Positions 8,910 to 34,025 of a stretch of 64,000 bases of DNA are shown in pieces. A model generated the notes under the pieces. It saw nothing but the letters and a program-made list of their open reading frames with translations. It was not told where the DNA came from and did no database searches. The number at the start of each line of letters is the position of its first letter. The first letter of the stretch is position 1. Location: the NCBI RefSeq assembly GCF_000381765.1, contig NZ_KB907074.1, positions 310,001 through 374,000 on the forward strand, read 5' to 3'. The stretch is from [Zimmermannella] faecalis ATCC 13722. GTDB taxonomy: Bacteria; Actinomycetota; Actinomycetes; Actinomycetales; Microbacteriaceae. Position numbers and translations under genes: made by a program.

Positions 8910-8911
8910 TC

Positions 8912-11463: not shown

Positions 11464-11478
11464 CGCTCGGCCGCGCCG

Positions 11479-12632: not shown

Positions 12633-12961
12633 TCCGCCCCCTTTGCCGTATCGTTTTCGGTCGCATCCCGCCACCTGTCTGCGGTGATCGGTTCGCGGTA
12701 CACGACAATCGCGCCCGCATCGGGCGATTCTACCCCTCGCTGGCGGCGGGAGCGAACGTGATTCGCGAGCATGACGGCGATCATCGGCAGGAAGATCGCA
12801 CCAAGGGCGAGCACCCAGAGGAACGGACCACGAACGACGATCATGAGCAGGAAACATGCGGTGCGAATCGCCATGGTGAGCATGTACTGCCGAAGGCGGG
12901 CCCGGCGCTCCTCCTCGGCGCTCTGCGTCATCGAAGTGACGTTGGTGACCTTGCCGTTCAT
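12629..12961 (-). CDS. DUF3099 membrane protein
   Basis: 110-residue protein with the DUF3099 pattern: a charged start (SAEEERRARLRQYMLTMAIRTACF), two adjacent hydrophobic helices (about residues 34-75) with a conserved RGPFLWV loop, and a basic tail. I chose the ATG at 12961, with GGAA a few bases upstream; a TTG at 12997 in the same frame is possible. Function is unknown. It heads a coupled three-gene set with the cysteine-containing protein and SURF1, and is divergent from fabG. Confidence 0.82.
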   Translation of the reverse strand: MNGKVTNVTSMTQSAEEERRARLRQYMLTMAIRTACFLLMIVVRGPFLWVLALGAIFLPMIAVMLANHVRSRRQRGVESPDAGAIVVYREPITADRWRDATENDTAKGAE

Positions 12962-13086
12962 GAGTTCCAGGATTCGTCTCGCGGTTGAATGCTTCAAGCG
13001 TACTCCCGGGCCCGCCTAGACTGGGCGAGATATTGCGCCTGCGTTTCGCGGGCCAAGCCGAGCAATCGACACCCTCGAGGAGCAGC

Positions 13087-13800: not shown

Positions 13801-13822
13801 CCCACGGCGGTGCCGCGCTCGC

Positions 13823-14521
13823 TCAGCCGCGCAAGCCGAGCGCGGCGAGCAGCTGCGTCATGTCGCGGCTCGGCAGCGAGATTGCCGCCTCCTGGCGCAC
13901 GATCGGTTTCGCGTCGAAGGCCACCGAGAGGCCGGCGATCGACATCATCCCGAGGTCGTTCGCGCCGTCGCCAACGGTGATGACTCGCTCGGCCGGGACG
14001 TCGAGTGACTGTGCCCAGCTGCGTACCGTGTGGCGCTTCACGTCGCGCCCGATGATCGTGCCGGAAACGTCGCCCGTGAGCTCGCCGTCGGCAGTGACCT
14101 CGAAGCGGTTCGCGCGCCAGAGGTCGAGGCCGAGTGTTTCCGCGAGCGGGTCGAGCACCTCGTGGAAGCCGCCCGATACGGCGCCGACTCGTCCGCCCGC
14201 GGCGTGAATCGCAGCGATGGTCTCTGGCACGCCTCGGGTGACTCGAATACGCTCGCCGACGCGGGCGATCTGGTCGAGCGAGATGCCGCGCAGCAGCGCG
14301 ACGCGCTCGCGCAGGCTGCCATCGAAGTCGAGCTCGCCGCGCATCGCGCGTTCGGTGACCTCGGCCACCTCGTCGCGCACGTCGGCGAACTCGGCGATGA
14401 GCTCGATCACCTCGTCTTCGATGAGGGTCGAGTCGACATCGAACACCACGAGGAATCGGGCGCCCGCAGTGACTCGTCCGCTGCCGTGGACAGGGGTCAG
14501 TTCGAGGTCGGAAATGCTCAC
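13823..14521 (-). CDS. serB: phosphoserine phosphatase
   Basis: 232-residue HAD-superfamily phosphatase, final step of serine synthesis (O-phosphoserine to serine). The DxDST motif [11 protein letters not shown] is at residues 27-37 with nucleophile D28 and acid/base D30. Then come [14 protein letters not shown] (motif II serine), a conserved lysine and [10 protein letters not shown] (motif III/IV acidic pair). The N-terminal ACT regulatory part seen in mycobacterial SerB2 is absent, so this is the short form. The start overlaps the stop of glgC. Confidence 0.93.
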
Positions 14522-15765
14522 CGCTCGACGATACCGTTCTTCGGCACCACCGTGAGGCCCGACTCCGTGACCGTGAAGCCGCGGGCGAGGTCGGCCTCGC
14601 GGTCGATGCCGATCGTCGCGCCGGCGCGGACGATGACGTTCTTATCGAGGATGCAGGAGCGCACCTGCGCGCCCGGCTCGACCTCGACGCGCTCGAACGT
14701 CACCGAGTCGACGATGAGGGCGCCAGACTGCACCTTTGTCCACGGGCCGAGCACGGAACGCTCAACATGGGCGCCCGAGATGACCGACCCGAGCGAGATG
14801 ATCGAATCGATCATGGTGCCGGTCGACCCACGCGAGTCGCGCACGAACTTGGCCGGCGGCGAGTTCAGCGTCTGCGAAATGATCGGCCACTTCTCGTTGT
14901 AGAGATTGAAGATCGGCAGCGTCTGAATGAGGTCCATGTGTGCCTCGTAGAACGAATCGATCGTGCCGACATCGCGCCAGTAGTCACGGTCGCGGGGCGT
15001 CGACCCGGGCACATCGTTATCAATGAAGTCGTAGACGCCGCAGTCCTGCTGCGCGACGAAGGCGGGGATGATGTCGCCGCCCATGTCATGCTTCGAATCA
15101 TCGAGCTGCGCATCGGCAATGACGGCTTCGACGAGCTTGTCGGCATCGAAGACGTAGTTACCCATCGACGCGAGAATCTCGTGCGGGCTGTCGGGCAGGC
15201 CGTTCGTCGTCTCGGGCTTCTCGAGGAATTCCCGGATATGCGAAGGGTTGTCGGGTTCGACGTCGATGACGCCGAACGAGGTCGACATTTCGATGGGCTG
15301 GCGAATCGCGGCGACGGTTGCGCCGAGGCCCGACTCGATGTGCTGCTCGATCATCTGCGAGAAGTCCATGCGATACACGTGGTCGGCACCGACGACGACG
15401 ACGATATCGGGCTTCTCGTCTTGAATAAGGTTGAGCGACTGGTAAATGGCGTCCGCCGAGCCCGAGAACCAGTGCTTACCGCGACGCTGCTGCGCGGGCA
15501 CACTCGAGACGTAGGAACCGAGGATCGCGGGGAGTCGCCATGTCTGTGACATGTGCCGGTCGAGCGAGTGCGACTTGTACTGCGTGAGCACGACGATCTG
15601 GTTGAGCCCCGAGTTCACGAGATTCGAGATCGCGAAGTCGATCAATCGATACTGCCCCGCGAACGGCACAGCCGGCTTCGCTCGGTCGGCGGTAAGTGGC
15701 ATGAGCCGCTTACCCTCGCCGCCGGCAAGCACAATTCCGAATATTTTCTTCTGCCCCTTTGCCAT
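14518..15765 (-). CDS. glgC: glucose-1-phosphate adenylyltransferase
   Basis: Makes ADP-glucose from glucose-1-phosphate and ATP, the first committed step of glycogen and alpha-glucan synthesis. The roughly 415-residue protein shows the nucleotidyltransferase start [24 protein letters not shown], the sugar-binding [13 protein letters not shown] and FLEKPE motifs, and a C-terminal left-handed beta-helix domain. I placed the start at the ATG at 15765; a GTG 3 codons upstream is also open. It diverges from glgA over a short AT-rich gap that must hold both promoters. Confidence 0.95.
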
Positions 15766-15827
15766 GAGGTTCACTCTAGGACGAAGACATTAATGAAGTT
15801 GTGCCGTTTGCTATCTAATGTGTAACC

Positions 15828-17015
15828 ATGCGAGTCGACGTCATCACCCGGGAATACCCACCGCATGTCTATGGCGGAGCGGGGGTGCACGTAACTGAGC
15901 TCGTGCGCGCCATGCGCACGGAGGCAGACGTGCGGGTGCGCTGCTTCGGGCAGCCGATCGAAGAGCCCGGAACGACCGGCTACGAGGTGCCGACCGACCT
16001 CGCCGACGCGAACGCCGCGCTCGGGTTTCTCGCCGGCGATCTGCGCATCGCGAATGATGCCGAGGGTGCAGATATCGTGCACTCACACACCTGGTACGCG
16101 AACCAGGCGGGCAACATCGCGAAGCTCGTGCACGGGATGCCACACGTCATCTCGGCACACTCGCTCGAACCGCTTCGCCCGTGGAAGGCCGAACAACTCG
16201 GTGGCGGCTATCGGCTTTCGAGCTGGATGGAGCGCGACGCATACACCAACGCCGACCGAATCATCGCGGTATCGAACGGGATGCGTGCGGACATTCTCCG
16301 GAGCTACCCGCAGCTCGACCCCGAGAAGGTCGTGACGATCTACAACGGCATCGACACGAACGACTGGCAGCCACTTCACGACGCGGCGACGGTCCGGGAG
16401 CTCGGCGTTGATCCCGACCAGCCGACGCTCATCTTCGTGGGACGCATCACCCGACAAAAGGGCCTGCCGTATCTGCTGCGCGCCGTGCGCGAGCTGCCCG
16501 CCGACATTCAGGTGGTGCTCTGTGCGGGTGCCCCGGACACACCCGAGATCGAGCGCGAGGTGCGCGAGCTCGTCGAAGAACTCCAGACCCAACGCGAGGG
16601 CGTGCATTGGATCTCCGAGCACCTGCCGCGACCCAAGATACAGGCGCTGCTCACCGCCGCCGATGTGTTCGTGTGCCCCTCGATTTATGAGCCACTCGGC
16701 ATCGTCAACCTCGAGGCGATGGCCTGCGGCACCGCGGTGGTCGGTTCGGGCACGGGCGGGATTCCTGAGGTCGTACAAGATGGCGTGACGGGAACCATCG
16801 TGCCGATCGATCAGGCGCAGGACGGCACCGGCACGCCGACCGACCCCGAGCGCTACATCGCCGACCTCGCCGCAGCCCTACGAGAGCTGCTTTCGAACCC
16901 AGAACTTGCGGCGCAGTACGGCCGGGCCGGTCGCGAGCGGGTCGAGCGCGAGTTCACGTGGTCACAAATCGGTAGCCAGACACTCGCGCTGTACCGCAGC
17001 ATCCTCGATGCCTAA
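15828..17015 (+). CDS. glgA: glycogen synthase, actinobacterial GT4 type (GlgA/GlgM)
   Basis: 395-residue GT4 glycosyltransferase with the start MRVDVITREYPPHVYGGAGVHV, acceptor-side HSHTWYANQAG, and the donor-site E-x7-E motif near residue 288 (SIYEPLGIVNLEA). Proteins of this type beside glgC in actinobacteria are annotated as GlgA; the mycobacterial member (GlgM) makes maltose-1-phosphate from ADP-glucose and glucose-1-phosphate. Sequence alone cannot choose between chain elongation and maltose-1-phosphate synthesis. It is transcribed away from glgC. Confidence 0.9.
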   Translation: MRVDVITREYPPHVYGGAGVHVTELVRAMRTEADVRVRCFGQPIEEPGTTGYEVPTDLADANAALGFLAGDLRIANDAEGADIVHSHTWYANQAGNIAKLVHGMPHVISAHSLEPLRPWKAEQLGGGYRLSSWMERDAYTNADRIIAVSNGMRADILRSYPQLDPEKVVTIYNGIDTNDWQPLHDAATVRELGVDPDQPTLIFVGRITRQKGLPYLLRAVRELPADIQVVLCAGAPDTPEIEREVRELVEELQTQREGVHWISEHLPRPKIQALLTAADVFVCPSIYEPLGIVNLEAMACGTAVVGSGTGGIPEVVQDGVTGTIVPIDQAQDGTGTPTDPERYIADLAAALRELLSNPELAAQYGRAGRERVEREFTWSQIGSQTLALYRSILDA

Positions 17016-21579: not shown

Positions 21580-22629
21580 GTGCGCATCGTCCCCATCACC
21601 TCACTCGAAATTCCCGAACTCCAAGATTATGCGCAGCTCACCGATGTTGCCCTGCGGCGCAAGCTTGAGCCCGCGGGCGGCCTGTATATGGCCGAGTCAG
21701 AGAAGGTCGTCGGCCGCGCGATTGCGGCGGGGCACGTACCCCGCTCGATGCTGCTGCAGGAGAAGTTCCTGCCGCAGGCCGAGCGGCTGTTGCGCGCGCA
21801 TCCCGACACTCCCGTCTATGTCGCCAGCGAATCGCTGCTCGAGGAACTCACGGGCTACCGGATGCACCGGGGCGTGCTCGCGGCGATGCACCGACCGGAA
21901 CTGCCGCAGGTCGCGGAGGTGCTCCGCGATGCGAAGACCGTGCTCGTGCTCGAGGACATCGTTGACCACACAAACGTGGGCGGATCCAAACCACCGCAGA
22001 CCGGGAATCTCTCCTCGGATACGAGCCGACCTTGGCAGCCCAAGGTAGCGAAAAGCGAGGTCGACGATACGTTCGAACTGAGCTCTGGCGTGTCCAGCGG
22101 TAAGGAGCGGCGCAGGACGCCAGCTCCTGGCGAGAGTTCAGCGGGGCGAGATAATCGTTCTGCCTCGAATACGAAGCGCCGCTCGCGGATCGCGATCTTC
22201 GAGAACATCGTCGATCATACGAATCTTGGAGCCGCGTTTAGGTCAGCAGCGGCGATCGGCGTGGACGCCGTCCTCGTCACCCCCAGTTGCGCGGACCCGC
22301 TGTACCGTCGGTCGATCCGGGTCTCGATGGGAACGGTGTTCCAGGTCCCCTGGGCGCGCATCGACTCATGGCCTGCGGACATCGACATGATTAGAAAGCA
22401 TGGGTACGTAGTGGCCGGCATGACGCTGGGGGAGGGTGCGATCACGCTCGACGAGCTGGTCGCGGAGGATCACCCGCATCTCGCGCTGGTGTTCGGGACA
22501 GAAGGCCACGGCTTGACGCGCCAGGCTGATCGTCGGCTCGACCGACGCGTGACGATCCCGATGATGCACGGCGTGGACTCGTTGAACGTGGCGGCGTCGG
22601 CGGCTGTGGCGTTCTACGCGACGCGGTAG
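21580..22629 (+). CDS. chimeric SpoU/TrmH-family RNA 2'-O-methyltransferase, rebuilt by the island
   Basis: 349-residue SAM-dependent RNA ribose methyltransferase of the SpoU (SPOUT) family, usually about 270 residues. Residues 1-134 are the host N-terminal substrate-binding part and the first motif EDIVDHTNVG. Residues 135-203 are a polar, low-complexity linker with no family resemblance. At residues 204-217 the motif is repeated (ENIVDHTNLG) and a complete catalytic part follows: AAFRSA, FGTEGHG at 305-311, IPMMHGVDSLNVA at 326-338. The repeat offset is exactly 83 codons. The original 3' part of the gene is displaced to 31775-32212. The GTG at 21580 starts the family-like N-terminus MRIVPITSLE. 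Whether the long form folds and works is unknown; the open frame suggests selection for it. Confidence 0.85.
   Translation: MRIVPITSLEIPELQDYAQLTDVALRRKLEPAGGLYMAESEKVVGRAIAAGHVPRSMLLQEKFLPQAERLLRAHPDTPVYVASESLLEELTGYRMHRGVLAAMHRPELPQVAEVLRDAKTVLVLEDIVDHTNVGGSKPPQTGNLSSDTSRPWQPKVAKSEVDDTFELSSGVSSGKERRRTPAPGESSAGRDNRSASNTKRRSRIAIFENIVDHTNLGAAFRSAAAIGVDAVLVTPSCADPLYRRSIRVSMGTVFQVPWARIDSWPADIDMIRKHGYVVAGMTLGEGAITLDELVAEDHPHLALVFGTEGHGLTRQADRRLDRRVTIPMMHGVDSLNVAASAAVAFYATR
22029..22046. repeat. 7-base inverted repeat near the left island end
   Basis: ACCTTGG-CAGC-CCAAGGT, perfect arms around 4 bases, within the linker region of the chimeric gene. It could be a protein-binding site of the island end or chance. 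Confidence 0.4.
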
Positions 22630-22641
22630 ACCTGGTCGGAA

Positions 22642-23586
22642 ATGTCAAAGCTAGCGAGAGGAACCAAACGAGTGCGAGGGGCAGACTTCTTCGGCCCGTG
22701 GGAGGGCGATCCGGTCACGTCTTGGGAGAGCGCCCTGAGTGAGATCGAGTCAGTTCTAAAGCGAACTGGGCAGCGGCGCGCCGTCGGTTGGCGAGGACAG
22801 GTCGATGCTCGTTGGAGCCTCCACAGCGGGCTGTACAGGAGATTGCTCGACGCGCGATCGGCAGTCCAACCGGCACCAGAGGAAGACGATCTGCTTCGAG
22901 CGGAAGAGAAGATCGCTCACTTCGTGCGAGGAGAGTGGCGTTTCGACCAGATGCCCTATCTGGAGTTGCTGGCGAACCTACAACACTTTAGAGGGCCGAC
23001 ACGGATGCTTGATGTCTCGCTCAGTCCGCTGGTCGCTCTCTGGTTCGCCGTCGAGGAGCAGCATGGCGAGTTGGACAGCGCGGACGGGCGAATCTTCGCA
23101 TTCGACGTCACGAATCGCCGTGTACAACTGGACGAGAAGTGGAATACGTACGACATTCCTTGGCGTGAGTCAGGCAGAAACACACGTTGGTGCAGAGATC
23201 TGCCATTGCTGTGGAGGCCACCCTCCTACAATGAACGCATCCCTGCGCAGCAGTCTGGCTTCCTGCTCGCGGGAGTGCCGAAGGTCTACGCCGGTGGGAA
23301 CGCCCAGTACCGGAAGGCCCCCGGTACGTCAGGAGAGTTCTGGCGCATCGATGAGGTGCGACGAGCCACCTCTCTCCCCACCAAGATGGTCGATCGCTCC
23401 GGGAAGGCTCTACAACAAGGTACCGAGCCCACTCTCACGATTCGGATCGCCGCAGAAGCAAAGGCCGGGATTCGTCGCCGACTCGAACGGGACTACGGCT
23501 ACAACCCCGCAACTATGTACCCCGACCTGTTCGGCATGGCGGCCGAAGTGCGTCGGGCCGTCGACAGTGCCGCGCTCTTGAAGTAA
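22642..23586 (+). CDS. FRG-domain protein
   Basis: 314-residue protein with the FRG domain (named for a conserved F-R-G). WRGQ is at residues 50-53, LHSGLYRR follows, then QHFRGPTRMLD at 114-124 and SPLVALWFA. A late QQSGFLL block also matches. FRG proteins are of unknown activity and often occur near restriction or abortive-infection genes. The ATG lies 12 bases after the stop of the chimeric methyltransferase, so the gene is probably read from the host methyltransferase promoter; a GTG at about 22672 is an alternative start. It converges on hsdR. No membrane segment or signal peptide is seen. Confidence 0.85.
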   Translation: MSKLARGTKRVRGADFFGPWEGDPVTSWESALSEIESVLKRTGQRRAVGWRGQVDARWSLHSGLYRRLLDARSAVQPAPEEDDLLRAEEKIAHFVRGEWRFDQMPYLELLANLQHFRGPTRMLDVSLSPLVALWFAVEEQHGELDSADGRIFAFDVTNRRVQLDEKWNTYDIPWRESGRNTRWCRDLPLLWRPPSYNERIPAQQSGFLLAGVPKVYAGGNAQYRKAPGTSGEFWRIDEVRRATSLPTKMVDRSGKALQQGTEPTLTIRIAAEAKAGIRRRLERDYGYNPATMYPDLFGMAAEVRRAVDSAALLK

Positions 23587-23755
23587 GCCTCGGGTCGGGC
23601 CGGTCGCTCCGCTGTGGCCGCGCAACTGCATGCCCCTTTTCGACGACCTCGATGGCGGGCGCGCCGCCGACCGCCCGATGACGGGCAAGTGATACGACGC
23701 CGATCTCGGCCGAATGCCGAGCCGAAGACACCAAGCTCAGTCGGCCTCTCACCAG

Positions 23756-26692
23756 CTAGTAGTACTCTCGGACGTAACCGAGGGCCTTCTCGAAGACATC
23801 GTTGTCGCGGATCTTGAACTGGACGTAGAGGGTCTTCCGCAGAGCTTGGCGGACCTCCTGGTCGCCGCGGATCGTGGACTGCCACCCCTCGAAGCGGACC
23901 CCACGGACGACCTCGTCGATCCGGTTGACGACGTTCTCGACGATGATCGGGGTCTGATCGCCCTTAAGAGCGTCGAACAGCTCCGTCAGGGCCGCTTTGC
24001 CCTGTTCTTCGCGGGGTACCTCGTCTACTGCCTTCTCGGCCGCGACGGTGTCTCGGGCGAGCTCGAGGAGCTCGCGCAGGAAGTCGAGGCTGGACTGCTG
24101 GATGTCGGCGTAGCGCTCGCGCAGGTCGTTGAGTCGCTGACCGAGCTCAATGAAGACCGGGTTGTGCAGGTGCCTGGCGATGCGTGCGGTGATCTGCTTC
24201 TCGATCTCTTCGGCCGGGATGTCGGTGCGCCGACCGGTCATGAGGTCTTCGATCGTCTGCGCGTCGAGCACGATCGTCTCGGCGTTCTGCGGGATCTCAA
24301 CGGCGACGTGCTCGTTGATCAGGTCGATCGTCTTGGCTCCGAGCGCGTGCCACACGAGTCGCCCCGTGATGTCCGAAGGGCGCACCGACTCGTAGACATC
24401 CGAGAGCCAACGGTAGTCATCGCGATGTTCGCCCAGCATGGGGTCTGGACTGAGTGCCTCCCACAGCTGTGACACCACGCTGTAGGCGGCTCCGAAGGCG
24501 TCCTTCGTGACGTCGTCGGCGATCGCGGATTGCGCCTGGACCAGGCCTTCGTACCCGCCGACCGTGCGGTCAACACCGGGGAAGAACGCGAGTGCGGCAG
24601 CCATCGCCGGCGCGAGCTGAGCCTTGAGCTCCTCGATGTTGGAGACGACCTCCCGTACAGCCTGCTCATCGAAGGAGAGGGATCGGGCGACGTCGTCGAA
24701 GATGCCGAGGTAGTCGACGATCAGTCCGTGGGTCTTGTCCGGGGGGTATACCCGGTTGGTGCGAGTGATCGCCTGGAGCAGAGTGTGTTCCTTCAGTGGC
24801 TTGTCGAGGTACTGGCAGTAGAGGATCGGAGCGTCGAACCCGGTCAGCAGCTTCGCCGTCACGATGATGATTTTGAGCGGATCGGTCGGGTCGTTGAACC
24901 GCGCGACCACCTGCTCCAGCTCCTCGGCACCTGGGGTCCACTTTGCCCAGTCGGGCGAGTCGCCTCGGGTCTTCGACATGACGATGGTCGATGCCTCGGG
25001 CCCGAGGTGCTTGTCGAGCTCGTTCTTGTACGCGACGCAGGAGGCCTTGTCGTACGCGACGACCTGCGCCTTGAAACCCTGTGGCTCCACTTTGGTTTGG
25101 AAGTGGGCGGCGATGTCGGCAGCGATCTTCGCGATGCGCGAGGGCGTCTTGATCAGCACCTCGATCGAGGCTGCCTTCTTCGAGAGGGTGATCTTGTCGC
25201 TCTCGGACAGATCGCGATCCGTGGCGAGTTCCTCGAACGCCGCGTCGATCGCCTCCTGGTCGATGTGGATTTCTGAGAGCCGTGGTTCGAAGTGCAACGG
25301 AAGGGTCGCACCGTCGCGGATGGAGTCCTGGAATGAGTACCGCGACAGGTAGCCGCCCTCGTCCTCGGGTGCACCGAACCACTTGAACGTGTTGCGGTCG
25401 CGCCGGTTGATCGGCGTGCCCGTCAGACCGAAGAGGTACGCGTTGGGCAGAGCCTCACGCATCTTCTGCCCGTAGTCGCCCTCTTGCGAGCGGTGGGCCT
25501 CGTCGACCATCGCGATGATGTTCTGCCGGGCGTCGAGGACGCCAGGTGCCTCGCCGAACTTGTGGATCGTGGTGATGATGATCTTCCGCGCGCCCTGGCT
25601 GAGCAGCGTCTGGAGTTGCGCTCTCGAGTCCGTCGACACCAAGCCCGGGACGTCCGAGGCGTTGAAGGTGCCCGTGATCTGGGTGTCCAGGTCGATGCGG
25701 TCGACCACGATCAGGATCGTTGGGTTCGTGAGCTCGGCCATCGCGCGCAGTTTGAGCGCGGTGAAGACCATGAGCAGTGACTTGCCCGAGCCCTGGAAGT
25801 GCCAGATCAGGCCCTGCTTGACCTTGCCGAGCAGGACTCGGTCAACGATCAGATTGGTCGCCTGGAACTGCTGGAACCGCGCGATGATCTTGATCTTGCG
25901 GTGCTTCTTGTCAGTCGCGTAAAGGGTGAAGAACCGCAGAAAATCCAGGACCGCACGGGGAGTGAGTACTCCTTCAACGGCTTCTTGGACCGCTACGAGA
26001 CCGATCTTCGCCGGCGCATCCTCATCGGTGGGGTCCTCGCGCCAAGGTCCCCAGAGCTCGACCGGCATGCCGATGGTGCCGTAGCGGAAGTCCTTGCCCT
26101 CCGTCGCGAAAGAGAACACGTTGGGCACGAAGAACTGCGGGACGCTCTGCTCGTAGTCATCGTGGATCTGTGCAGCGCCGTCAATCCAGGTGTACGCCGG
26201 CCGGATCGGCGTCTTCGCCTCGCCCACCACGAGAGGCAGACCGTTGCACCACAGCACGAGATCGAACCGCTTCTCGAGCCGGCCCTGCTTGAAGGTCACT
26301 TCGGTCGAGACGATCCACTGGTTCGACGAGTCATCGTCGAGGTGATCGAAGTCAATCAGCCGGACCGTGGTGTGTTCGCCGTTCGGCCCGAACGGCATCG
26401 ACTTCTGCCCGGTCAGCCACGCCATGAACTCCTCGTTGGCCACCACCGGATGCGGGCTGTTGCGGGCGGCGATCAGGATCGCGCGGAGGTTGTAGATAAC
26501 CTCATCTGCCTTCGCAGGGTCCGCCTCGATCTCCGGGTTGAAGCGGATGAGCGCGCCCTTGAGCACACCTTCCATCAGCACCTCGTTGGTACGACGCGGC
26601 AGCTCGTTGCCCGGCACGAACTGGACATCTATCGACTGGATCAGGTCTCGGATGAAGTCTCGCACCGAGTTCGCTTCGTTGAACTGCGCCAT
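23756..26692 (-). CDS. hsdR: type I restriction enzyme, R subunit
   Basis: 978-residue restriction and translocation subunit. The N-terminal PD-(D/E)xK nuclease shows D144 and E158-x-K160 (FDLVLWCNG...GEAK). The SF2 motor has Walker A at about 298-305 (HFQGSGKS), DEAH at 397-400, TGTP at 424-427 and the late motif ITRTNRVYP. The C-terminal helical part would bind the M/S core. It lies last in the island operon and overlaps the hsdS stop by one base; GGAGG precedes its ATG. All catalytic motifs are intact, so cleavage activity is expected. Confidence 0.95.
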   Translation of the reverse strand: MAQFNEANSVRDFIRDLIQSIDVQFVPGNELPRRTNEVLMEGVLKGALIRFNPEIEADPAKADEVIYNLRAILIAARNSPHPVVANEEFMAWLTGQKSMPFGPNGEHTTVRLIDFDHLDDDSSNQWIVSTEVTFKQGRLEKRFDLVLWCNGLPLVVGEAKTPIRPAYTWIDGAAQIHDDYEQSVPQFFVPNVFSFATEGKDFRYGTIGMPVELWGPWREDPTDEDAPAKIGLVAVQEAVEGVLTPRAVLDFLRFFTLYATDKKHRKIKIIARFQQFQATNLIVDRVLLGKVKQGLIWHFQGSGKSLLMVFTALKLRAMAELTNPTILIVVDRIDLDTQITGTFNASDVPGLVSTDSRAQLQTLLSQGARKIIITTIHKFGEAPGVLDARQNIIAMVDEAHRSQEGDYGQKMREALPNAYLFGLTGTPINRRDRNTFKWFGAPEDEGGYLSRYSFQDSIRDGATLPLHFEPRLSEIHIDQEAIDAAFEELATDRDLSESDKITLSKKAASIEVLIKTPSRIAKIAADIAAHFQTKVEPQGFKAQVVAYDKASCVAYKNELDKHLGPEASTIVMSKTRGDSPDWAKWTPGAEELEQVVARFNDPTDPLKIIIVTAKLLTGFDAPILYCQYLDKPLKEHTLLQAITRTNRVYPPDKTHGLIVDYLGIFDDVARSLSFDEQAVREVVSNIEELKAQLAPAMAAALAFFPGVDRTVGGYEGLVQAQSAIADDVTKDAFGAAYSVVSQLWEALSPDPMLGEHRDDYRWLSDVYESVRPSDITGRLVWHALGAKTIDLINEHVAVEIPQNAETIVLDAQTIEDLMTGRRTDIPAEEIEKQITARIARHLHNPVFIELGQRLNDLRERYADIQQSSLDFLRELLELARDTVAAEKAVDEVPREEQGKAALTELFDALKGDQTPIIVENVVNRIDEVVRGVRFEGWQSTIRGDQEVRQALRKTLYVQFKIRDNDVFEKALGYVREYY

Positions 26693-27873
26693 CAGTTGCC
26701 TCCAAACACATCCGCCAGGAAAGAGCCGTGGAGTGCGGCAAGGGCTTCTACCTCGTCGACGGCCTGGTCCACCGCGCCATTCAGCTGACCGACTCGCTCG
26801 ATAAGAGCCAACTGGTCGTGCTTCGGCGGGACGACGAGAGTCCGAGCCAAGTAGTCGGGTACGGCGAGGTTGGAGATATTCGTCGTTCGGCGTGCGTAGT
26901 CCCGCGTCACGCCGGTGAGCCAGTCGAGACGCAGCTTCCAGAAGAGGTAAGCAGGCTCGACCTGATCTCTATCCGGACGGAGTAGTCGTTGAAAGTCAGT
27001 CGGAATGGTATCCGGGAGATCCGGCCCGGCGATCATGACCCGACCGACAGCTTGCTCAAACGATCCTCCCGAACGCTCAAGCACGATGTCCCCTTCGCGG
27101 AGGATCCGGCCTGCAGCCTGCTTCCTCGTAATGGAACGCGTCGGCGAGCCGTTGGGGTCAACAAACACCACGTCGCCCGAGTAGGACTTCGGGCCGAGTG
27201 CCAGGACATCAACTTCACCTTCTCCGGCAGGGGCGCCCCACACTCCACCGATGACGAACTCACAGAGATCGACGATCCGGCGTTCGGAGCCGACAGCCGC
27301 ATCGAACTGCTGCAGCGCCCACCTCGCGAGAGTCGCTCGAAGCTCCAAAGCCTGCTTCTCAAGCGCCAGGCGGTGGCGCTCAACAGACCAGAGTAGGTCG
27401 GCGATGAGCTTCTGCTCGTCGAGGGGTGGGAGATCGAACTCGAAATCCTTCAGGTCACGCCAGTTCGTGCGCGGTGACAGCGAGCCGGCTGATGTGCCGA
27501 GTGCATGCTCGAAGAAGCCGTCCGACTGGACTAGGAACGGAAGCAGGTCTCCGCGAAGCTGCGTCTCATCCGCCTCGAAGGTGTAGATGTCACCAGAGCA
27601 GATGGCGTCGAACTCGGCGTAGGCGACCTTGCGCTGGTATGCGCGGCGCTTGCCGAAGAGCGTTTGGCCGGGCTTCACGCGTCGTGTGAAGGTGGTGCCG
27701 TCCTCTGTTGAACCCCACCGGCTGATTTTCAGCTCGCCGGGGTCCATGTGCTCCATCGCGATGACGCGGTCGATGCCGGCCGCTTCGAGATCACGGACGG
27801 TCTCATTGACGTTGCGAACAACGTCGCCGAAGGCGACCCGCTTCCAGTGCGACTTCTCGAGGTTGAGGCTCAT
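26692..27873 (-). CDS. hsdS: type I restriction enzyme, specificity (S) subunit
   Basis: 393-residue S subunit with two target-recognition domains (about residues 1-150 and 200-355), each followed by a helical conserved region: DEQKLIADLLWSVERHRLALEKQALELR after the first, and HDQLALIERVGQLNGAVDQAVDEVEALAALHGSF at the end. The two halves recognise the two parts of a bipartite DNA site. It is full length by family standards. Its ATG overlaps the stop of the second hsdM gene, with GGAGG upstream. The recognition sequence cannot be read from the protein. Confidence 0.92.
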   Translation of the reverse strand: MSLNLEKSHWKRVAFGDVVRNVNETVRDLEAAGIDRVIAMEHMDPGELKISRWGSTEDGTTFTRRVKPGQTLFGKRRAYQRKVAYAEFDAICSGDIYTFEADETQLRGDLLPFLVQSDGFFEHALGTSAGSLSPRTNWRDLKDFEFDLPPLDEQKLIADLLWSVERHRLALEKQALELRATLARWALQQFDAAVGSERRIVDLCEFVIGGVWGAPAGEGEVDVLALGPKSYSGDVVFVDPNGSPTRSITRKQAAGRILREGDIVLERSGGSFEQAVGRVMIAGPDLPDTIPTDFQRLLRPDRDQVEPAYLFWKLRLDWLTGVTRDYARRTTNISNLAVPDYLARTLVVPPKHDQLALIERVGQLNGAVDQAVDEVEALAALHGSFLADVFGGN

Positions 27874-29363
27874 GCCGTCACCTCCGCTCTCAGCAGCGCG
27901 AGAACGTCAGTGATCGCCTGATCCGAAACGTGCGCGGCAACTCGCCACTGGGCCACGGCATCGCTGACATCGACGTGCTCACCGGCTTCCTTGGCGGATT
28001 CTCCGGCAACGTATAGCGGAATCGCGAGACTGTGGCCCTTGTGAGCGATCTGGTCGAGGGTGGCAACTGCAGCGAACCCGTCCTGTGGCTCGAAGGCGCG
28101 ATAGGCGTCTAGGATCTTCTGTTGGTGCGCCTCGCGGAGGAAGGACTGTGCCTGTTCGCGGGCGACTTCGTTCACGGCATTGATGAACAGCACCTCGCCC
28201 TGGTGCTCGGCGGGCTTGTTGGCGCGGAGCGTGACGACCACGGCCTCCATGGGGCTGTTATAGAAGAGCCCTGCGCCGAGCCCGAGAACGCATTCGATCA
28301 GGTCGGACTTCACCAGAGCTTCACGCAGGGCCGCCTCTTCACGCCGGAAGAGCACCCCGTGGGGGAAGAGGATCGCAGCGCGGCCCGTATCGGGGTCGAG
28401 GCTCTTGGCGATGTGCTGGAAGAACGCGTAGTCCGCACGTCCTTGTGGGGGCACGCCCCACACGTTGCGACCGTACGGGTCCTTGGCGAACGCAGCGCGG
28501 TTCCACGCCTTGATGGAGTAGGGCGGGTTTGCCAGCACGACGTCGAACGTCTGCAGATGACCCTTGCCGTCGAGGAACGCCGGTCGGCTCAAGGTGTCGC
28601 CGTGGGCAATGTGGCCGTCGGTGATGCCGTGTAGGAACAGGTTCATCCGCGCGATGGCGGATGTCCCGTAATTGAGCTCCTGACCGTAGAGGCGCAGATT
28701 CCGCCACTCCTTGCCCTGCCGCTTCAGTTCGGCGGCGGTGGAGATGAGCATGCCGCCCGTGCCGCAAGTGGGGTCGTATACCGACTCACCCGGCTGGGGC
28801 TCGAGCATCATCGTCATCAGGTGCACCAGCGTGCGATTGGTGTAGAACTCCTGCGCGGTGTGACCGGAGTCGTCCGCGAATTTCTTGATCAGGTACTCGT
28901 ACCCGTTGCCGAGCTCGTCCTCAGGCAGGTTGGCGATCGAGAGCGTCTTGGTGGAGAAGTGCTCGATCAGGTCCGCCAGGGTCGAGTCCGGGAGCAGGTC
29001 CTTGTTGCCCCAGTCGCCGTCGCCGAATACGCCGGGGAGTGTGTCAGGGTTGGCCTTCTCGATGGAGCGCATGGCGTGCAGGAGTGCCGCGCCGATGTTC
29101 TGCGTGACGCCGCGGATGTCTTCCCAGTGGCAGCCGTGGGGGATGGCGAAGCGGTGGTTCTCTGGGAGGTCGGCGAGCTCCTCGTCTTCGTATACATCCA
29201 TCGCGGCGGCGTGCTCCTCGTCGTAGACGTCGGAGATCCGCTTCAGGAAGACGAGCGGGAAGATGTACTGCTTGTAGTCGCCCGCGTCGATCAGCCCACG
29301 GAGCACGATCGCCGCGCCCCACAGGTAGTTCTCCAGCTCTCGCTGCGTGATTCTGGTGCTCAT
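27870..29363 (-). CDS. hsdM: type I restriction enzyme, methyltransferase (M) subunit, second copy
   Basis: 497-residue N6-adenine methyltransferase. The N-terminal HsdM helical domain (ENYLWGAAIVLRGLIDAGDYKQYIFPLVFLKRISD) is followed by the SAM motif DPTCGTGG at about 197-204 and catalytic NPPY at 279-282. Motif X reads QEFYTNR where GEFYTPR is usual, a mild departure. It starts at the ATG at 29363, overlapping the stop of the first hsdM gene, and overlaps hsdS by 4 bases. It is clearly homologous to its upstream neighbour but far from identical, so it is not a recent duplicate. Confidence 0.93.
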   Translation of the reverse strand: MSTRITQRELENYLWGAAIVLRGLIDAGDYKQYIFPLVFLKRISDVYDEEHAAAMDVYEDEELADLPENHRFAIPHGCHWEDIRGVTQNIGAALLHAMRSIEKANPDTLPGVFGDGDWGNKDLLPDSTLADLIEHFSTKTLSIANLPEDELGNGYEYLIKKFADDSGHTAQEFYTNRTLVHLMTMMLEPQPGESVYDPTCGTGGMLISTAAELKRQGKEWRNLRLYGQELNYGTSAIARMNLFLHGITDGHIAHGDTLSRPAFLDGKGHLQTFDVVLANPPYSIKAWNRAAFAKDPYGRNVWGVPPQGRADYAFFQHIAKSLDPDTGRAAILFPHGVLFRREEAALREALVKSDLIECVLGLGAGLFYNSPMEAVVVTLRANKPAEHQGEVLFINAVNEVAREQAQSFLREAHQQKILDAYRAFEPQDGFAAVATLDQIAHKGHSLAIPLYVAGESAKEAGEHVDVSDAVAQWRVAAHVSDQAITDVLALLRAEVTA

Positions 29364-30910
29364 ACGGACAGCCCCCACTTCGCCAGCTCGGCCTCCAGCG
29401 CAGCACGCGTCGTGGTCGCCTCGGCGTGCGCCGTTTCGAGATTCGCGAGCGCGTCCGCGAGCGTGAGCTTCTCGCCGCTGTCAGGAGGCGCGACGTACAG
29501 CGGGATGTTGAGGTTGTAGTCGTTGCTCTCGATCTCGGCCAGGCCGACGACACGGGAGCGGCCCTCGATGTCAGCGTAGAGCTCATAGGCGTCGAGGATC
29601 TGCTGGGCATGCTCGGGTTCGAGGGTGTTCTGGTTGCGTCCGCGCTTGAACAGGTCTTCACCGTTGATGAAGAGCACCTTGCCCTTCTTGTCTGGTTGCT
29701 TCTCCTGTCGAAGGATCAGCACGCAGGCGGCGAGGCCAGTGCCGTAGAAGAGGTTGGGGGCCAACCCGATGACCGCGTCGACGAGGTCTGACTTGAGCAC
29801 GTGGGTGCGGATCCGCGCCTCAGCTCCCTGCCGGAAGAGTGCCCCTTGGGGCAGGACGACGGCGACTCGGCCAGTCCTTGGTTTCGCGGAGGTGATCATG
29901 TGCTGGACCCAGGCCCAGTCGGCGTATCCCTTCGGCGGGACTCCACCAAGTGCGTTCCGGCCCCACTTGTCGGACGCCCACTCGGGCTCGCCCCAGTTCT
30001 TGAGCGAGAACGGCGGGTTGGCGACGACGCAGTCGAACTGCGCAAGATTATTGCCCGTGTAGAAGGCGGGATTGCGCAACGTGTCCTCGCGGACGATCTT
30101 GAAGTCCTCGACGCCGTGGAGCAGCAGGTTCATCCGTGCGATCGCAGAGGTGGCGAGCACTTTCTCCTGGCCGTAGAGCTTGCCCCACAGGGTCTTGGGG
30201 CTGCCGCCGGCATCTTTCACGTGCTCGATGACCTCGATCAGCATGCCGCCGGTGCCGCAGGCCGGGTCGTAGACCGTCTCGCCCTCGGTGGGATTGAGGA
30301 TGTTGACGAGTAGGCCGACCACCGAGCGCGGCGTGTAGTACTCACCGGCCTTCTTGTTCGACTGGTCGGCGAACCTCTTGATGAGGTACTCGTACGCGTT
30401 GCCGAACACGTCGGGCGGCACAGCGGCGTTGGTCAGCGCCTTACTCGAGAAGTGCTCGATGAGATCGGCGAGCTTCCGATCGGGCAGCTTGTCCTTGTTG
30501 GTCCAGCTGGCGTTGCCGAAGATGCCGTATAGCGTCTCGGGGTTGGCCTTCTCGATCTCCCGGAACGCGGTCTGAAGCGCGGTGCCGATGTTCTCGGTGC
30601 GATTGCGGACGTCGTCCCACAGGCTGCCCTCGGGGATGGCGAAGCGGTGGTTCTCCGCGAACAGGGCGAACTCGTGGTCGCCCCCGGACTCGTCCAGCGC
30701 TTGGGCGTACTCCTCGAGATAGACGTCGCTGATCCGCTTGAAGAACATCAGCGGGAAGATGTACGCCTTGAAATCGGCCTGGTCGATGCTGCCGCGCAGC
30801 AGGTCAGCCGCCGCGGCGAGGTACTGCTCGAGCTCCGCCAGCGTCAGCGGATCGCTCCCGCCGTTGGGGCGCAATGCCCGCGCTGCCGCGCGTGCCTCAT
30901 CCTCGGTCAT
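29360..30910 (-). CDS. hsdM: type I restriction enzyme, methyltransferase (M) subunit, first copy
   Basis: 516-residue N6-adenine methyltransferase with the HsdM N-terminal domain (LAELEQYLAAAADLLRG, FKAYIFPLMFFKRISDVY), motif X GEYYTPRSVVG, SAM motif DPACGTGG at 215-222 and catalytic NPPF at 298-301. A helical C-terminal end (LADALANLETAHAEATTTRAALEAELAKWG) would contact HsdS. The ATG at 30910 has AGGAG 4 bases upstream, so I prefer it to the longer frame from 30943. It is a second, independent M gene directly before the other, giving an operon of M, M, S, R. Confidence 0.93.
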   Translation of the reverse strand: MTEDEARAAARALRPNGGSDPLTLAELEQYLAAAADLLRGSIDQADFKAYIFPLMFFKRISDVYLEEYAQALDESGGDHEFALFAENHRFAIPEGSLWDDVRNRTENIGTALQTAFREIEKANPETLYGIFGNASWTNKDKLPDRKLADLIEHFSSKALTNAAVPPDVFGNAYEYLIKRFADQSNKKAGEYYTPRSVVGLLVNILNPTEGETVYDPACGTGGMLIEVIEHVKDAGGSPKTLWGKLYGQEKVLATSAIARMNLLLHGVEDFKIVREDTLRNPAFYTGNNLAQFDCVVANPPFSLKNWGEPEWASDKWGRNALGGVPPKGYADWAWVQHMITSAKPRTGRVAVVLPQGALFRQGAEARIRTHVLKSDLVDAVIGLAPNLFYGTGLAACVLILRQEKQPDKKGKVLFINGEDLFKRGRNQNTLEPEHAQQILDAYELYADIEGRSRVVGLAEIESNDYNLNIPLYVAPPDSGEKLTLADALANLETAHAEATTTRAALEAELAKWGLSV

Positions 30911-30961
30911 CCGTCTCCTATTTTTTGCTCCACCACGCGACAAAGCAGCTACCGACTCAGC

Positions 30962-31549
30962 TCACGGCCGAGGGGACAACGTCCCCTGACTAGGCCCTCG
31001 TTGCGTCAGCGCGCGGTGGACGGTTCCGATCGACACGCCAGCGCTTGCGGCGATGCTGCGCAACGACTCGCCTCGATCTCTCCACATCCTAATCTCGCGC
31101 TGCGTCTCGTCGCTAATGGTGCGTGGTCGGCCGTGGCTGCCTCCGTGTTCCCGCGCCGTCTGGATGCCGGCCCGGATGCGGGAGCTTTGAAGCTCTCGAC
31201 GTAGTTGTCTGAGCTCGCGGATGTCAGCGAGGAGCTCCGAGTCTCCGGTGTGCTCGCCCGCGGCCAGCCCCACGAGGACCTTCACTGTTACTCCTCGGTC
31301 AACGAGGTCCAGCAGTGTCTCGAGTCCGTCGACCATGCTCGTGCTCAGGCTCCGTGCGCGGGTCACGGTGAGTGCATCGCCGTCGCCCACCTCCGTCACA
31401 GCAGCGAGGAGCCCGGGGCGGTTCTTGATCAGGCGTCGACGCGATGCTGTCTCCTCGAAGAGACGCGAGCAGATCGGCTCGAGCACTTGCCGTTGCAATC
31501 TCGCGTCCTGGGGGTCTGCCCCGACCTGGACGAGTCCTATGAGCGCCAT
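30962..31549 (-). CDS. resolvase/invertase-fold protein lacking all catalytic residues
   Basis: 195-residue protein that aligns along its whole length with small serine recombinases of the Hin/resolvase type: MALIGLVQVG at the start, LQR and RLFEETAS next, NRPGLLAA, then LETLLDLVDRGVTVKVL, and a C-terminal helix-turn-helix (ESLRSIAASAGVSIGTVHRAL) after a GRPR hinge. Yet the active site is gone: Arg8 is Gln, Ser10 is Gly, and the D-R-L-G-R-S segment reads R-S-L-S-T-S. It cannot recombine DNA by the known chemistry. It is first in the island's minus-strand operon, 51 bases before hsdM, so I infer a DNA-binding regulator. The ATG at 31549 gives the family N-terminus. Confidence 0.75.
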   Translation of the reverse strand: MALIGLVQVGADPQDARLQRQVLEPICSRLFEETASRRRLIKNRPGLLAAVTEVGDGDALTVTRARSLSTSMVDGLETLLDLVDRGVTVKVLVGLAAGEHTGDSELLADIRELRQLRRELQSSRIRAGIQTAREHGGSHGRPRTISDETQREIRMWRDRGESLRSIAASAGVSIGTVHRALTQRGPSQGTLSPRP

Positions 31550-31774
31550 CAGCCCAAGCTCAGGTCGCTGCTGCGCAGTCGCAGCATGGCAGTGGGTGGG
31601 GGAGCGAAGTGCATAGGGTTTATTGAACACTCCAAGCCGGCCGACAATGACGACCGAGCGGCCGTATTTGCCTTCTGACCTGCGGAGACGTAATGCTCAG
31701 TTCATCGGCGTGTTGACCGGAAGGAACTGAGCGAACGGGTCCGAAACGCTCCAGAACACTCTGTGACCGCATCC
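31550..31774. other. right-end non-coding segment of the island
   Basis: About 225 bases with no convincing gene. It must hold the promoter of the resolvase-like/hsd operon (minus strand) and any promoter now serving the helicase at 32223 (plus strand). It contains a 9-base inverted repeat at 31695-31732 and ends at the insertion junction. Confidence 0.6.
31695..31732. repeat. 9-base inverted repeat near the right island end
   Basis: GCTCAGTTC (31695-31703) and GAACTGAGC (31724-31732) are perfect arms 20 bases apart, about 40 bases inside the right junction. The same GAACTGAGC also occurs near the left end at 22075-22083. They may be binding sites for the resolvase-like protein or for a recombinase acting from elsewhere. 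Confidence 0.55.
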
Positions 31775-32212
31775 AACGTCGGCGCCGCGTTCCGCAATGC
31801 GGCCGGCCTCGGAGCCGACGCCGTGCTCGTCACGGAGCGCTGCGCCGATCCGCTCTACCGACGCAGCGTGCGCGTCTCGATGGGCACCGTGCTGCAGGTG
31901 CCCTGGACCCGACTGCCCGTGTGGCACGAAGCGGCCCGCCTGCTGCACGATCACGGCTTCGAGATCGCCGCGCTCGCGCTCGACGATGCCGCCGTGCCGC
32001 TGCCCGACTACGCCCGGACGCGGCCGGAACGGGTCGCGCTCGTGCTGGGCACCGAGGGCGACGGGCTCGGCCGCCAGGCGCTCTCCGCCGCCGACCGCAC
32101 GGTCGTGATTCCGATGCTCCACGGCGTCGACTCGCTCAATGTCGCGGCGACGAGCGCCGTCGCCCTCTACGCGCTGCAGAACACCGCCGGCGATGTCGCA
32201 GGGGAGTCGTAA
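31775..32212 (+). pseudogene. displaced original 3' part of the SpoU/TrmH methyltransferase gene
   Basis: The frame NVGAAFRNAAGLGADAVLV and onward holds the catalytic part of a SpoU methyltransferase: LGTEGDG, IPMLHGVDSLNVA and the C-terminal end. The N-terminal 130 residues are missing and are found at 21580-21981, across the island. An upstream GTG at 31763 in frame has no ribosome-binding site I can see, so the piece is probably not translated. It ends 10 bases before the helicase gene, the spacing expected of an original two-gene unit. The island's substitute 3' end encodes a clearly related but divergent version of this part. Confidence 0.85.
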
Positions 32213-32222
32213 CCTGGAAACG

Positions 32223-34025
32223 ATGTCTGAAGCACAGCGCGCCGGAACCCAGGTTGGCCTCTACGCAGCCGAACACCTGTCGCCGACGTATCCGCAGCGC
32301 GCCCCCTGGGGCACCGCGGGAAGCCTTCGCGCGTGGCAGGAGGAGGCGCTCGAGCGGTACTTCGCGACCCAGCCGCGCGACTTCCTCGCCTCGGCAACCC
32401 CGGGCGCAGGCAAGACGACGTTCGCGCTCCGCCTCGCGGCCGAACTCCTGCACGCCGGCACCGTGAACCGCGTCATTGTCGTGGCGCCGACCGACCACCT
32501 GAAGACCCAGTGGGCCAACTCGGCGGCACGGGTGGGTATTCGGCTCGACCCGAAGTTCTCGAACGGGCAGGGCACCTTCTCACGCGAGTTTCACGGCATC
32601 GCGGTGACGTACGCCCAGGTCGCGATGAAGCCGTACGTGCACGAGCACCTCTGTGCGTCGGCTCGCACGCTCGTGATTCTCGACGAGGTGCACCACGGCG
32701 GCGACAACCTCTCATGGGGCGACGGACTGCGTGACGCGTACCAACACGCCGAGCGGCGGCTCTCGCTCACGGGAACACCGTTCCGTTCCGACACCGCGCC
32801 GATTCCGTTCGTGCGCTACGTGCGCGACGACGACGGCATTCGCGTATCGCGGGCCGACTACACGTACGGGTACGGCCGGGCGCTCACCGACGGCGTCGTG
32901 CGTCCCGTGCTGTTCATGACCTATGCGGGCAGCATGCGCTGGCGCGACACGCAGGGCGAAGAGATGTCGGCCGGCCTCGGCGACGACAACACGAAAGACA
33001 TCGTTTCGCAGGCGTGGCGCACGGCGCTCGACCCCCGCGGAGACTGGATGCAGCAGGTACTGCGGGCTGCCGACCGTCGCCTCGACGAGGTGCGCGCGGA
33101 GGTGCCCGACGCGGGCGGCCTCGTGATTGCGACCGACCACGAGTCGGCGCGCGGCTACGCCGCCCTGCTCGAGCACATCACCGGCACGAAACCCGCGGTG
33201 ATCCTCAGCGACGACCCGGGCGCGTCGGCCCGGATCGAGTCGTTCTCGGCGTCTGACGAGCGATGGATGGTCGCCGTGCGCATGGTGTCGGAGGGCGTCG
33301 ACGTGCCGCGCCTCGCGGTCGGGGTGTACGCCACAAGCTCGTCAACGCCGCTGTTCTTCGCGCAGGCGATCGGCCGCTTCGTGCGCGCGCGGCGTCGCGG
33401 TGAGACCGCGACCGTGTTCATCCCGTCTGTGCCGAAGCTCGCCGCGCTCGCCGAGGCGCTCGAACTCGAACGTGACCACGCGCTCGACCGACGCGACGGC
33501 AACGGCGACTCCGAGGTCGACGGCATGACCGAGGAAGAGCGGGAACTCGCCGAGGCCGAGCGTGAGGAGCAGGCGAGCGACGAGCTCACGAAGTACAAGT
33601 TCGAGGCGATCTCATCGAACGCCGAGTTTCAACGCGTCGTCTACGACGGCGGTGACTACGGCTTCAGCGCCGAGGTCGGCTCGCTCGAAGAACTCGAATA
33701 TCTCGGCCTGCCCGGGATCCTCAACCACGACGAGGTCGCGCAGGTGCTCGAGGCTCGAGCGCAGAAGCAGACGCGAATTCAGGATGCGCGCGCCCGCAAC
33801 GAGGTGAACGACGGGCACCAGACGGTACAACCGCTGCACCGCAGCCTCAAGGAACAGCGCACGCTGCTCAACTCGCTCGTCGGGCTCTACGCGCGCCAGT
33901 CACACATGCCGCACGGCAAGGTGCACTCGGAGCTCCGCCGCATCTGCGGCGGGCCCGCGGTTGGGCAGGCGACCTCGCACCAGATTCAGCAGCGCATCAA
34001 CGAGCTGCGCCGCCGCCTGCACTAG
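32223..34025 (+). CDS. DEAD/DEAH-box superfamily 2 helicase
   Basis: 600-residue SF2 helicase-like protein: motif Q-like LRAWQEEALERYF, Walker A ATPGAGKTT at about 58-66, DEVH in the Walker B, SLTGTPFRSD (motif III) and a C-terminal half with SEGVDVPRLAVGVYAT and QAIGRFVRARR (motifs V and VI). A charged stretch around residues 410-450 precedes a C-terminal part with no known domain. Such proteins are common in actinobacteria and of unknown role. It was originally directly behind the methyltransferase gene; the island now separates it from that promoter. Its stop overlaps the converging DedA gene. Confidence 0.88.
   Translation: MSEAQRAGTQVGLYAAEHLSPTYPQRAPWGTAGSLRAWQEEALERYFATQPRDFLASATPGAGKTTFALRLAAELLHAGTVNRVIVVAPTDHLKTQWANSAARVGIRLDPKFSNGQGTFSREFHGIAVTYAQVAMKPYVHEHLCASARTLVILDEVHHGGDNLSWGDGLRDAYQHAERRLSLTGTPFRSDTAPIPFVRYVRDDDGIRVSRADYTYGYGRALTDGVVRPVLFMTYAGSMRWRDTQGEEMSAGLGDDNTKDIVSQAWRTALDPRGDWMQQVLRAADRRLDEVRAEVPDAGGLVIATDHESARGYAALLEHITGTKPAVILSDDPGASARIESFSASDERWMVAVRMVSEGVDVPRLAVGVYATSSSTPLFFAQAIGRFVRARRRGETATVFIPSVPKLAALAEALELERDHALDRRDGNGDSEVDGMTEEERELAEAEREEQASDELTKYKFEAISSNAEFQRVVYDGGDYGFSAEVGSLEELEYLGLPGILNHDEVAQVLEARAQKQTRIQDARARNEVNDGHQTVQPLHRSLKEQRTLLNSLVGLYARQSHMPHGKVHSELRRICGGPAVGQATSHQIQQRINELRRRLH

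Follow-up and report, generated by a model that had tools for sequence, protein, structure and literature searches.

Defence islands that interrupt and appear to rebuild a SpoU/TrmH-type methyltransferase gene in actinobacteria, probably inserted by a serine recombinase acting in trans

Staphylococcal cassette chromosome (SCC) elements are site-specific islands at the 3' end of the RNA methyltransferase gene rlmH; they use ccr serine recombinases, carry restriction cargo and occur also in forms without ccr. Integration in a protein gene is likewise known for dusA islands and icd prophages, whose tyrosine integrases are carried by the element; the end of icd is restored upon insertion. Here we describe a 9,802-bp island of [Zimmermannella] faecalis ATCC 13722 that lies in the middle of a SpoU/TrmH-type gene, carries type I restriction-modification genes and appears to bring a replacement catalytic domain for the gene it interrupts. 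The window, i.e., the whole stretch of DNA analysed, is 64,000 nucleotides long (contig NZ_KB907074.1, positions 310,001 to 374,000, forward strand), and coordinates below are those of the window unless a locus is named. Other genomes and loci are denoted by G and L numbers.

Other described elements share single aspects of this arrangement. In PMC5704250, integrative and mobilisable elements (IMEs) at an internal site of rumA encode serine integrases and are described among insertions disrupting dispensable genes, and cis-mobilisable elements (CIMEs) of integrative and conjugative element (ICE) families keep attL and attR, have lost their integration genes and occur in tandem at one gene. A prophage of Mycobacterium abscessus is reported to use codon 6 of a SpoU-like gene (PMC10654092); its attachment site (attB) is in a different place from codon 132, where the islands lie. 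No description of islands at the SpoU N-x-G site was recognised in the open-access literature searched.

The host gene starts at 21580, breaks inside codon 132 at the AA of AAC (21973) and resumes at 31775. Direct reading gives AAC GTG GGC (21973 to 21981) on the left and AAC GTC GGC (31775 to 31783) on the right, the boundaries chosen in an earlier sequence-only reading of this DNA; the inserted block that it placed between the gene halves is real, and its length of 9793 bases is corrected here to the 9,802 bp of the element. The interrupted codons encode N-V-G, the N-x-G site that we take to be part of the SpoU catalytic motif. The parts of the interrupted gene and the ends of the element are as follows.

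21580 to 21975, plus strand: 5' part of the host SpoU/TrmH-type gene, encoding the substrate-binding domain and the first strand as far as N132 of N-V-G; 86 to 88% amino acid identity to the uninterrupted G009 and G007 genes, with the frame continuing open into the island.
21973 to 21974, plus strand: attL core AA; with the attR core, the sole sequence common to all attL and attR of nine islands.
21975 to 22176, plus strand: element left arm (starting CGTGGGCGGATCCAAAC) and in-frame linker, 65 codons past N-V-G; 98% identical at the amino acid level in G235.
22177 to 22629, plus strand: complete SPOUT methyltransferase domain carried by the element; PF00588 at 4.9e-33, ratio of nonsynonymous to synonymous substitution rates (dN/dS) 0.04 to 0.19 to five other islands, modelled as folding from its own first strand.
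31741 to 31774, plus strand: element right arm; 34 bp identical in G122, one difference in G235.
31775 to 31776, plus strand: attR core AA.
31775 to 32212, plus strand: native 3' remainder of the host gene, displaced but with 145 codons of open frame left; 85% to the intact congener gene, PF00588 at 7.7e-31.

When the flanks were joined by script, they gave a single uninterrupted protein of 276 residues, as expected if one gene once spanned both. The right fragment is 85% identical to the intact gene of congener G009, against 59% for the island SpoU part, and on this basis the former is native and the latter foreign. All 10 congeners have an open frame of 277 to 317 residues at this gene, and the motif DHTNVGA is intact in every one of 29 loci read (the 10 congeners and 19 further relatives, drawn from the 52 of 59 other genomes searched that gave a match). 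In G007 and G009, which were fetched with flanks, the same helicase-like gene follows the intact SpoU gene. The empty site looked for in relatives exists. The downstream neighbour in the window is a long helicase-like open reading frame (ORF) at 32139 to 34025, also present beside the G074 locus. Eight other genomes show the same junction, which disfavours an assembly artefact, a concern raised in the sequence-only reading. Exact junctions and an empty site in relatives mark the insertion as a site-specific island.

The SpoU part and a recombinase relative encoded near the right end of the island were searched for in 396 genomes of the order, and the loci were fetched and compared. Both junctions were resolved in nine islands: those of the window, G235 (its contig matches Brachybacterium timonense), G122, G086, Aeromicrobium sp. 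PE09-221 (of a different order from the window host in NCBI taxonomy), G074, G192, G082 and G1046. All nine use the same codon and AA core, and their hosts belong to five families (f1, f7, f12, f18 and Nocardioidaceae) and two orders. The suggestion that a family of islands uses a SpoU gene at N-x-G is thereby substantiated, as is the expectation of other cargo at the same codons, found in other genera and families and in one other order.

In attL of all nine islands, AA is preceded by host-variable sequence and followed by CGTG; in attR, the last base of the arm before AA is always C, and the bases after AA vary with the host (T replaces C after AA in Aeromicrobium). The right ends of the G235 and Aeromicrobium islands were placed by hand from the arm and ORF. 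CGTG is assigned to the element because AACGTG is present in merely 5 of the 29 intact host genes and would be common if CGTG were of host origin. A 2-bp overlap is a hallmark of serine recombinases, and AA alone being shared by attL and attR therefore indicates an enzyme of this type.

Insertion is accompanied by restoration of the target reading frame, which is open and in frame in 9 of 9 islands. The distance from AAC to the conserved SPOUT start is 204, 54, 51 or 45 nucleotides, all multiples of three, and the junction GTG is the sole in-frame start codon of the linker in seven of the nine. Because a 65-codon in-frame linker (21982 to 22176) intervenes between host part and island domain in the window, the gene is repaired by fusion, not seamlessly. 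The sequence-only reading had recognised a complete SpoU catalytic part that continues the host frame, and the frame is indeed open from 21580 through the linker. It had described this as repair with a foreign 3' half; foreign and in frame it is, but what is supplied is a whole methyltransferase domain behind a linker rather than a bare half. The dN/dS values of this domain (five island pairs with the window) indicate purifying selection. The N half of the host gene gave about 0.10 to 0.16 against two congeners and the displaced native part about 0.22 to 0.27, both computed from separate dN and dS values; the latter range has no same-half control from two intact genes and is not relied on. In an AlphaFold model of the fusion (18 sequences), residues 120 to 198, comprising the host first strand and the linker, are unordered (predicted local distance difference test [pLDDT] of <50), and the SPOUT domain begins at the element's own strand 202 to 207. 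Since the modelled domain starts with this strand, the island appears to supply the whole catalytic domain, with the host retaining only the substrate-binding part. In-frame fusion of the host 5' part to a complete SPOUT domain suggests that the target enzyme is rebuilt instead of lost.

An island-borne enzyme that could have catalysed the insertion was sought. Five islands (window, G235, G122, G086 and Aeromicrobium, group 1 below) encode a serine recombinase relative, in the window at the following position.

30962 to 31549, minus strand: relative of the small serine recombinases that lacks the catalytic serine and the D-R..R set and opens the hsd row; PF00239 at 7.3e-10 and alignments, start at MALIGLV inferred from the alignments.

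None of the five proteins has the residues of an active small serine recombinase: in alignments to a yardstick resolvase, the catalytic serine is replaced in all of them (by G in four and T in one), the D-R..R set is absent from all and the first R is kept in three. All catalytic residues are kept in the eight nearest free relatives (L035 to L042); farther away, L043 and L044 have a truncated or shifted start, and most others keep these residues. The remaining four islands contain no serine recombinase relative at all. A scan of 23 loci, including the nine islands and those of G150 and G287 (four serine recombinase queries against six-frame segments of ≥50 residues, cut-off of 1e-3; the G098 stretch L179 was outside this set), found no serine recombinase relative other than the five dead ones, and in the window and L097 islands every main ORF has a Pfam match, none of these being to an integrase of another type. 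In the genome of the window, the single PF00239 match is the dead gene itself and the single PF07508 match is an ORF without a catalytic domain; PF00239 matches are absent from G150, and G082 has a single weak one. The sequence-only reading was right about the insertion and missed both the recombinase-like gene without catalytic residues and the islands without any such gene. As no recognisable working serine recombinase is present in any of the nine islands, we infer a helper acting in trans. The dead relative may have been kept as a DNA-binding regulator, a guess based on its place and on helix-turn-helix matches. A dyad upstream of its start (31695 to 31732) was considered as its binding site and rejected, being not conserved in L091 and L125. 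Its free relatives were without SpoU within the fetched stretch at ten loci, and two plasmid relatives lie among unrelated genes.

We conclude that the element is probably a non-autonomous, site-specific integrative defence island that was inserted by a serine recombinase acting in trans and rebuilds its target enzyme. A recombinase supplied from outside would join attP of a circular form of the element to attB, which lies in the host gene at the codons for N-V-G, the 2-bp overlap being AA; the site and the overlap are observed, and the circular form and the enzyme are postulated. Through the element-encoded linker the host 5' part is fused in frame to a complete foreign SPOUT domain, and the displaced native 3' part stays behind at the far end. 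The cargo consists of a type I restriction-modification row with an exchangeable specificity subunit and of an exchangeable slot gene. A bolder version, to which we give somewhat less than an even chance, is that the islands form a recombinase-less family with one SpoU catalytic-motif site, a replacement domain and exchangeable cargo modules, spreading across families and orders only by borrowed serine integrases, and that the dead resolvase of one branch regulates this borrowing or the restriction genes.

Several observations weigh against this proposal. The helper enzyme was not found. The attP of L097 had no match among phage records, that of G122 matched 19 records at E values of 0.1 to 2 in exonuclease, nucleotidyltransferase and tail genes, and attP-arm patterns gave 0 and 2 hits in viral contigs, both hits away from SpoU. 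Two more distant relatives of the dead resolvase also deviate at catalytic positions, L048 by loss of the serine and L055 by loss of the last arginine, and the dead gene has a dN/dS of 0.29 to 0.44, a weaker constraint than on other genes, so it may be decaying or only weakly constrained. The check for tyrosine and DDE enzymes covers only the principal ORFs of two islands (window and L097), and the G235 island has a transposase-like ORF. Seven of 10 island genomes hold 3 to 9 PF00239 matches and may therefore contain helpers of their own. The fusion model is of modest quality (mean pLDDT of 66.5; residues 99 to 104, 329 to 331 and 340 to 349 are also <50), and activity of the fused enzyme is a prediction.

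Two phages combine a similar SpoU part with an integrase. Of 50,697 phage records, 20 matched the island SpoU part, the three best being from Streptomyces phages Kamino and Sitrop (Sitrop twice). Viral contigs contained 0 relatives of this part. In both (genus Camvirus), a SpoU catalytic part 66 to 67% identical to that of the island is the neighbour of a serine integrase gene and is preceded, in frame, by N-V-G or H-V-G and a short linker. These phages, with the same codons and linker-SpoU design, were overlooked in the sequence-only reading. The region lies around 4940 to 5450 of L128 (Sitrop) and L129 (Kamino), where the Sitrop SpoU match overlaps the annotated integrase start. By eye, 50-bp attP-like dyads centre on the GG of GTGGGC, about 5 bp from the AA core of the islands, and the phage enzyme therefore probably differs from the island enzyme. 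The part of the Kamino paper available (PMC11536984) mentions the integrase and not the SpoU part or attB. The Kamino integrase has matches in 68 of 297 genomes of the order. A large serine integrase of this type directly beside a bacterial SpoU gene was sought by eye in nine genomes (G043, G044, G058, G074, G099, G103, G113, G122 and G192), and none was adjacent.

The strongest competitor to a helper in trans is that each island formerly had an integrase of its own, lost or killed after insertion, so that the islands are immobile, decayed remnants resembling CIMEs. Dead recombinase relatives in five islands fit this, as do older-looking islands with truncated SpoU fragments (G098, G318 and G247). 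Nevertheless, the islands at L097, L098, L099 and L174, in four genera and three families, each have their own sharp junction and no serine recombinase, so integrase loss would have to predate all four insertions. Moreover, the displaced native part is still open over at least 135 codons in eight of the nine islands (it is frameshifted in G235), and the insertions therefore look recent. We regard this history as unlikely, though it deserves the most serious consideration of the alternatives. Another reading, suggested by the in-frame SpoU part beside an integrase gene in both Kamino and Sitrop, has the islands mobilised by the serine integrases of such phages that target SpoU. It is less likely again given the offset of the dyads, the lack of a match to the Kamino integrase in the window's genome at 1e-20 and the negative outcome of the search for island attP in phages.

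Two further explanations dispense with either the repair or the recombinase. Insertion might destroy the host enzyme, with the SpoU part being unrelated cargo that is in frame by coincidence; in favour of this, the SpoU-like attB gene of M. abscessus is reported as non-essential for growth (PMC10654092). A coincidence is very improbable, however, when the frame is kept across four linker lengths, the domain is under purifying selection and two phages have the same design. That the islands pass from host to host in linear form and enter by homologous exchange at spoU, with no recombinase, might be suspected from the spoU sequence on both flanks and is the least probable of these readings. The islands of L097, L098 and L099 (G074, G192 and G082) are 90 to 94% identical and their 400-bp flanks only 55 to 66%, with the change at the AA core, whereas homologous exchange would carry flank sequence along; flank-homology exchange is strongly disfavoured by this difference.

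On the plus strand, the window island encodes the linker, the SPOUT domain and an FRG-domain protein; on the minus strand, the recombinase relative, two HsdM, HsdS and HsdR form one row. With all three subunits present, the row qualifies as a type I restriction-modification system.

22642 to 23586, plus strand: FRG-domain protein, slot gene; PF08867 at 6.3e-16, PADLOC candidate group PDC-S15 at 3.9e-27.
23756 to 26692, minus strand: HsdR, type I restriction subunit; PF18766, PF04313, REase_I.
26692 to 27873, minus strand: HsdS specificity subunit; PF01420, 31 to 55% identical to those of four related islands.
27870 to 29378, minus strand: HsdM, first copy; PF02384, PF12161.
29360 to 30943, minus strand: HsdM, second copy (TTG start); PF02384, PF12161.

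Group 1 islands share type I genes with two HsdM. Compared with the others of this group, the window island has 96 to 98% identity in HsdR and 91 to 98% in HsdR and HsdM together but merely 31 to 55% over the length of HsdS, and HsdR has a dN/dS of 0.04 to 0.06 (four pairs). The HsdS proteins of the window and G235 are identical at 157 of the first 170 residues and at 63 of the remaining 201, suggesting exchange of one recognition half. The slot is occupied by FRG in the window and G086 and by an AAA protein in G235, G122 and Aeromicrobium; the best matches of the Aeromicrobium protein are the OLD and AriA models. The G086 FRG copy (L093, oriented 2017 to 2961) has an in-frame stop at residue 58 and may therefore be out of use. 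In G235 (L091, oriented 8777 to 16618), the hsdM pair is split by ∼8 kb of inserted genes, among them the transposase-like ORF and pieces of a second gene for restriction. The group 2 island of G074 encodes HsdM, an Mrr-type (type IV) enzyme, HsdS and an EcoR124-like HsdR, and its close relatives are those of G192 and G082; the G1046 island has HsdM and HsdR matches, is 99% identical to group 2 in its last 200 bp and is 1.2 kb longer. No plasmid with a whole island was found in near-identity searches. The two-HsdM row (27870 to 30943) also occurs on a Streptomyces hirsutus plasmid (L176; protein identity of 82% and 75%), and DNA identity to the related hsd row on one Streptomyces plasmid is 78%; neither a SpoU part nor a resolvase relative is present in the plasmid DNA retrieved (17 kb). 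Group 2 cargo has partial matches of 74 to 78% on four plasmids.

Further use of the site is suggested by other loci. At least two matches to the SpoU catalytic part occur in 12 of the 396 genomes; nine of these were examined, with seven linker islands and two (G150 and G287) apparently linker-less. The other three are G012, G161 and G263, of which G012, with two N-half matches, perhaps contains paralogues. Linker-less cases (G150, G287, G098, G318 and G247) are outside the count of nine islands. A left-arm pattern built from five known left ends, which misses variants without linker, gave 5 hits in 394 genomes of the class (3 known islands and 2 outside SpoU; 1 hit for the reversed control) and 5 in 398 genomes of the family (3 islands, with G1046 new, and 2 outside SpoU), the two genome sets overlapping. 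In G287 (L094, C4:89000-104500), three SpoU catalytic parts lie in a row, the second preceded by left-arm-like sequence and the last with one stop codon; these are probably two islands in tandem. In G150 (L095/L096, C1:2193500-2219800), ∼22 kb lies between a pair of similar SpoU catalytic parts, the left side lacks a linker, and the ORFs read as transporters, regulators and an insertion sequence-like transposase, not defence. In G098 (L102/L179), an intact linker-less SpoU gene is followed by restriction-like genes and, ∼13 kb on, by a truncated piece of SpoU that shares 83% identity with the island part, an arrangement that looks like an older use of the same site.

The islands are recurrent-site, gene-restoring integrative islands; CIMEs are their nearest counterpart in concept, and SCC in style. 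Like CIMEs, they keep attL and attR without a working integration gene (of serine type); they differ in being small defence islands of several families, with a replacement protein domain and no parent ICE found. With SCC they share an RNA methyltransferase target, probable serine-type recombination and restriction cargo. Unlike SCC, they sit mid-gene in a SpoU/TrmH-type gene rather than at the 3' end of rlmH, supply a whole domain and lack a ccr-type large serine recombinase, the window island having no intact serine recombinase of any kind. The rumA IMEs resemble them in the serine enzyme and in the internal site of an rRNA methyltransferase gene, but disrupt a dispensable gene and encode the integrase. 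Kamino and Sitrop share the V-G codons, the in-frame linker and a SPOUT domain beside a likely attP; they are phages with a large serine integrase and an apparent centre at GG, not AA. The dusA islands and icd prophages share the protein-gene target and, for icd, the restored gene end, and differ in the element-borne tyrosine integrase. Distinctive of the present islands are repair at the level of a domain in the middle of a catalytic motif and the lack of a working serine recombinase in all nine.

An element can thus land within a conserved enzyme gene, in its middle, when it brings a whole catalytic domain and a linker, and the expected outcome of such a landing is a chimeric enzyme rather than a broken gene. 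The source of the integration enzyme is a testable question, as the defence genes appear to spread without carrying one, and candidate integrases can be tested directly because the sites are small and defined (an AA core with arms of about 30 bp). Our results suggest that defence genes may cross bacterial families without an integration enzyme of their own.

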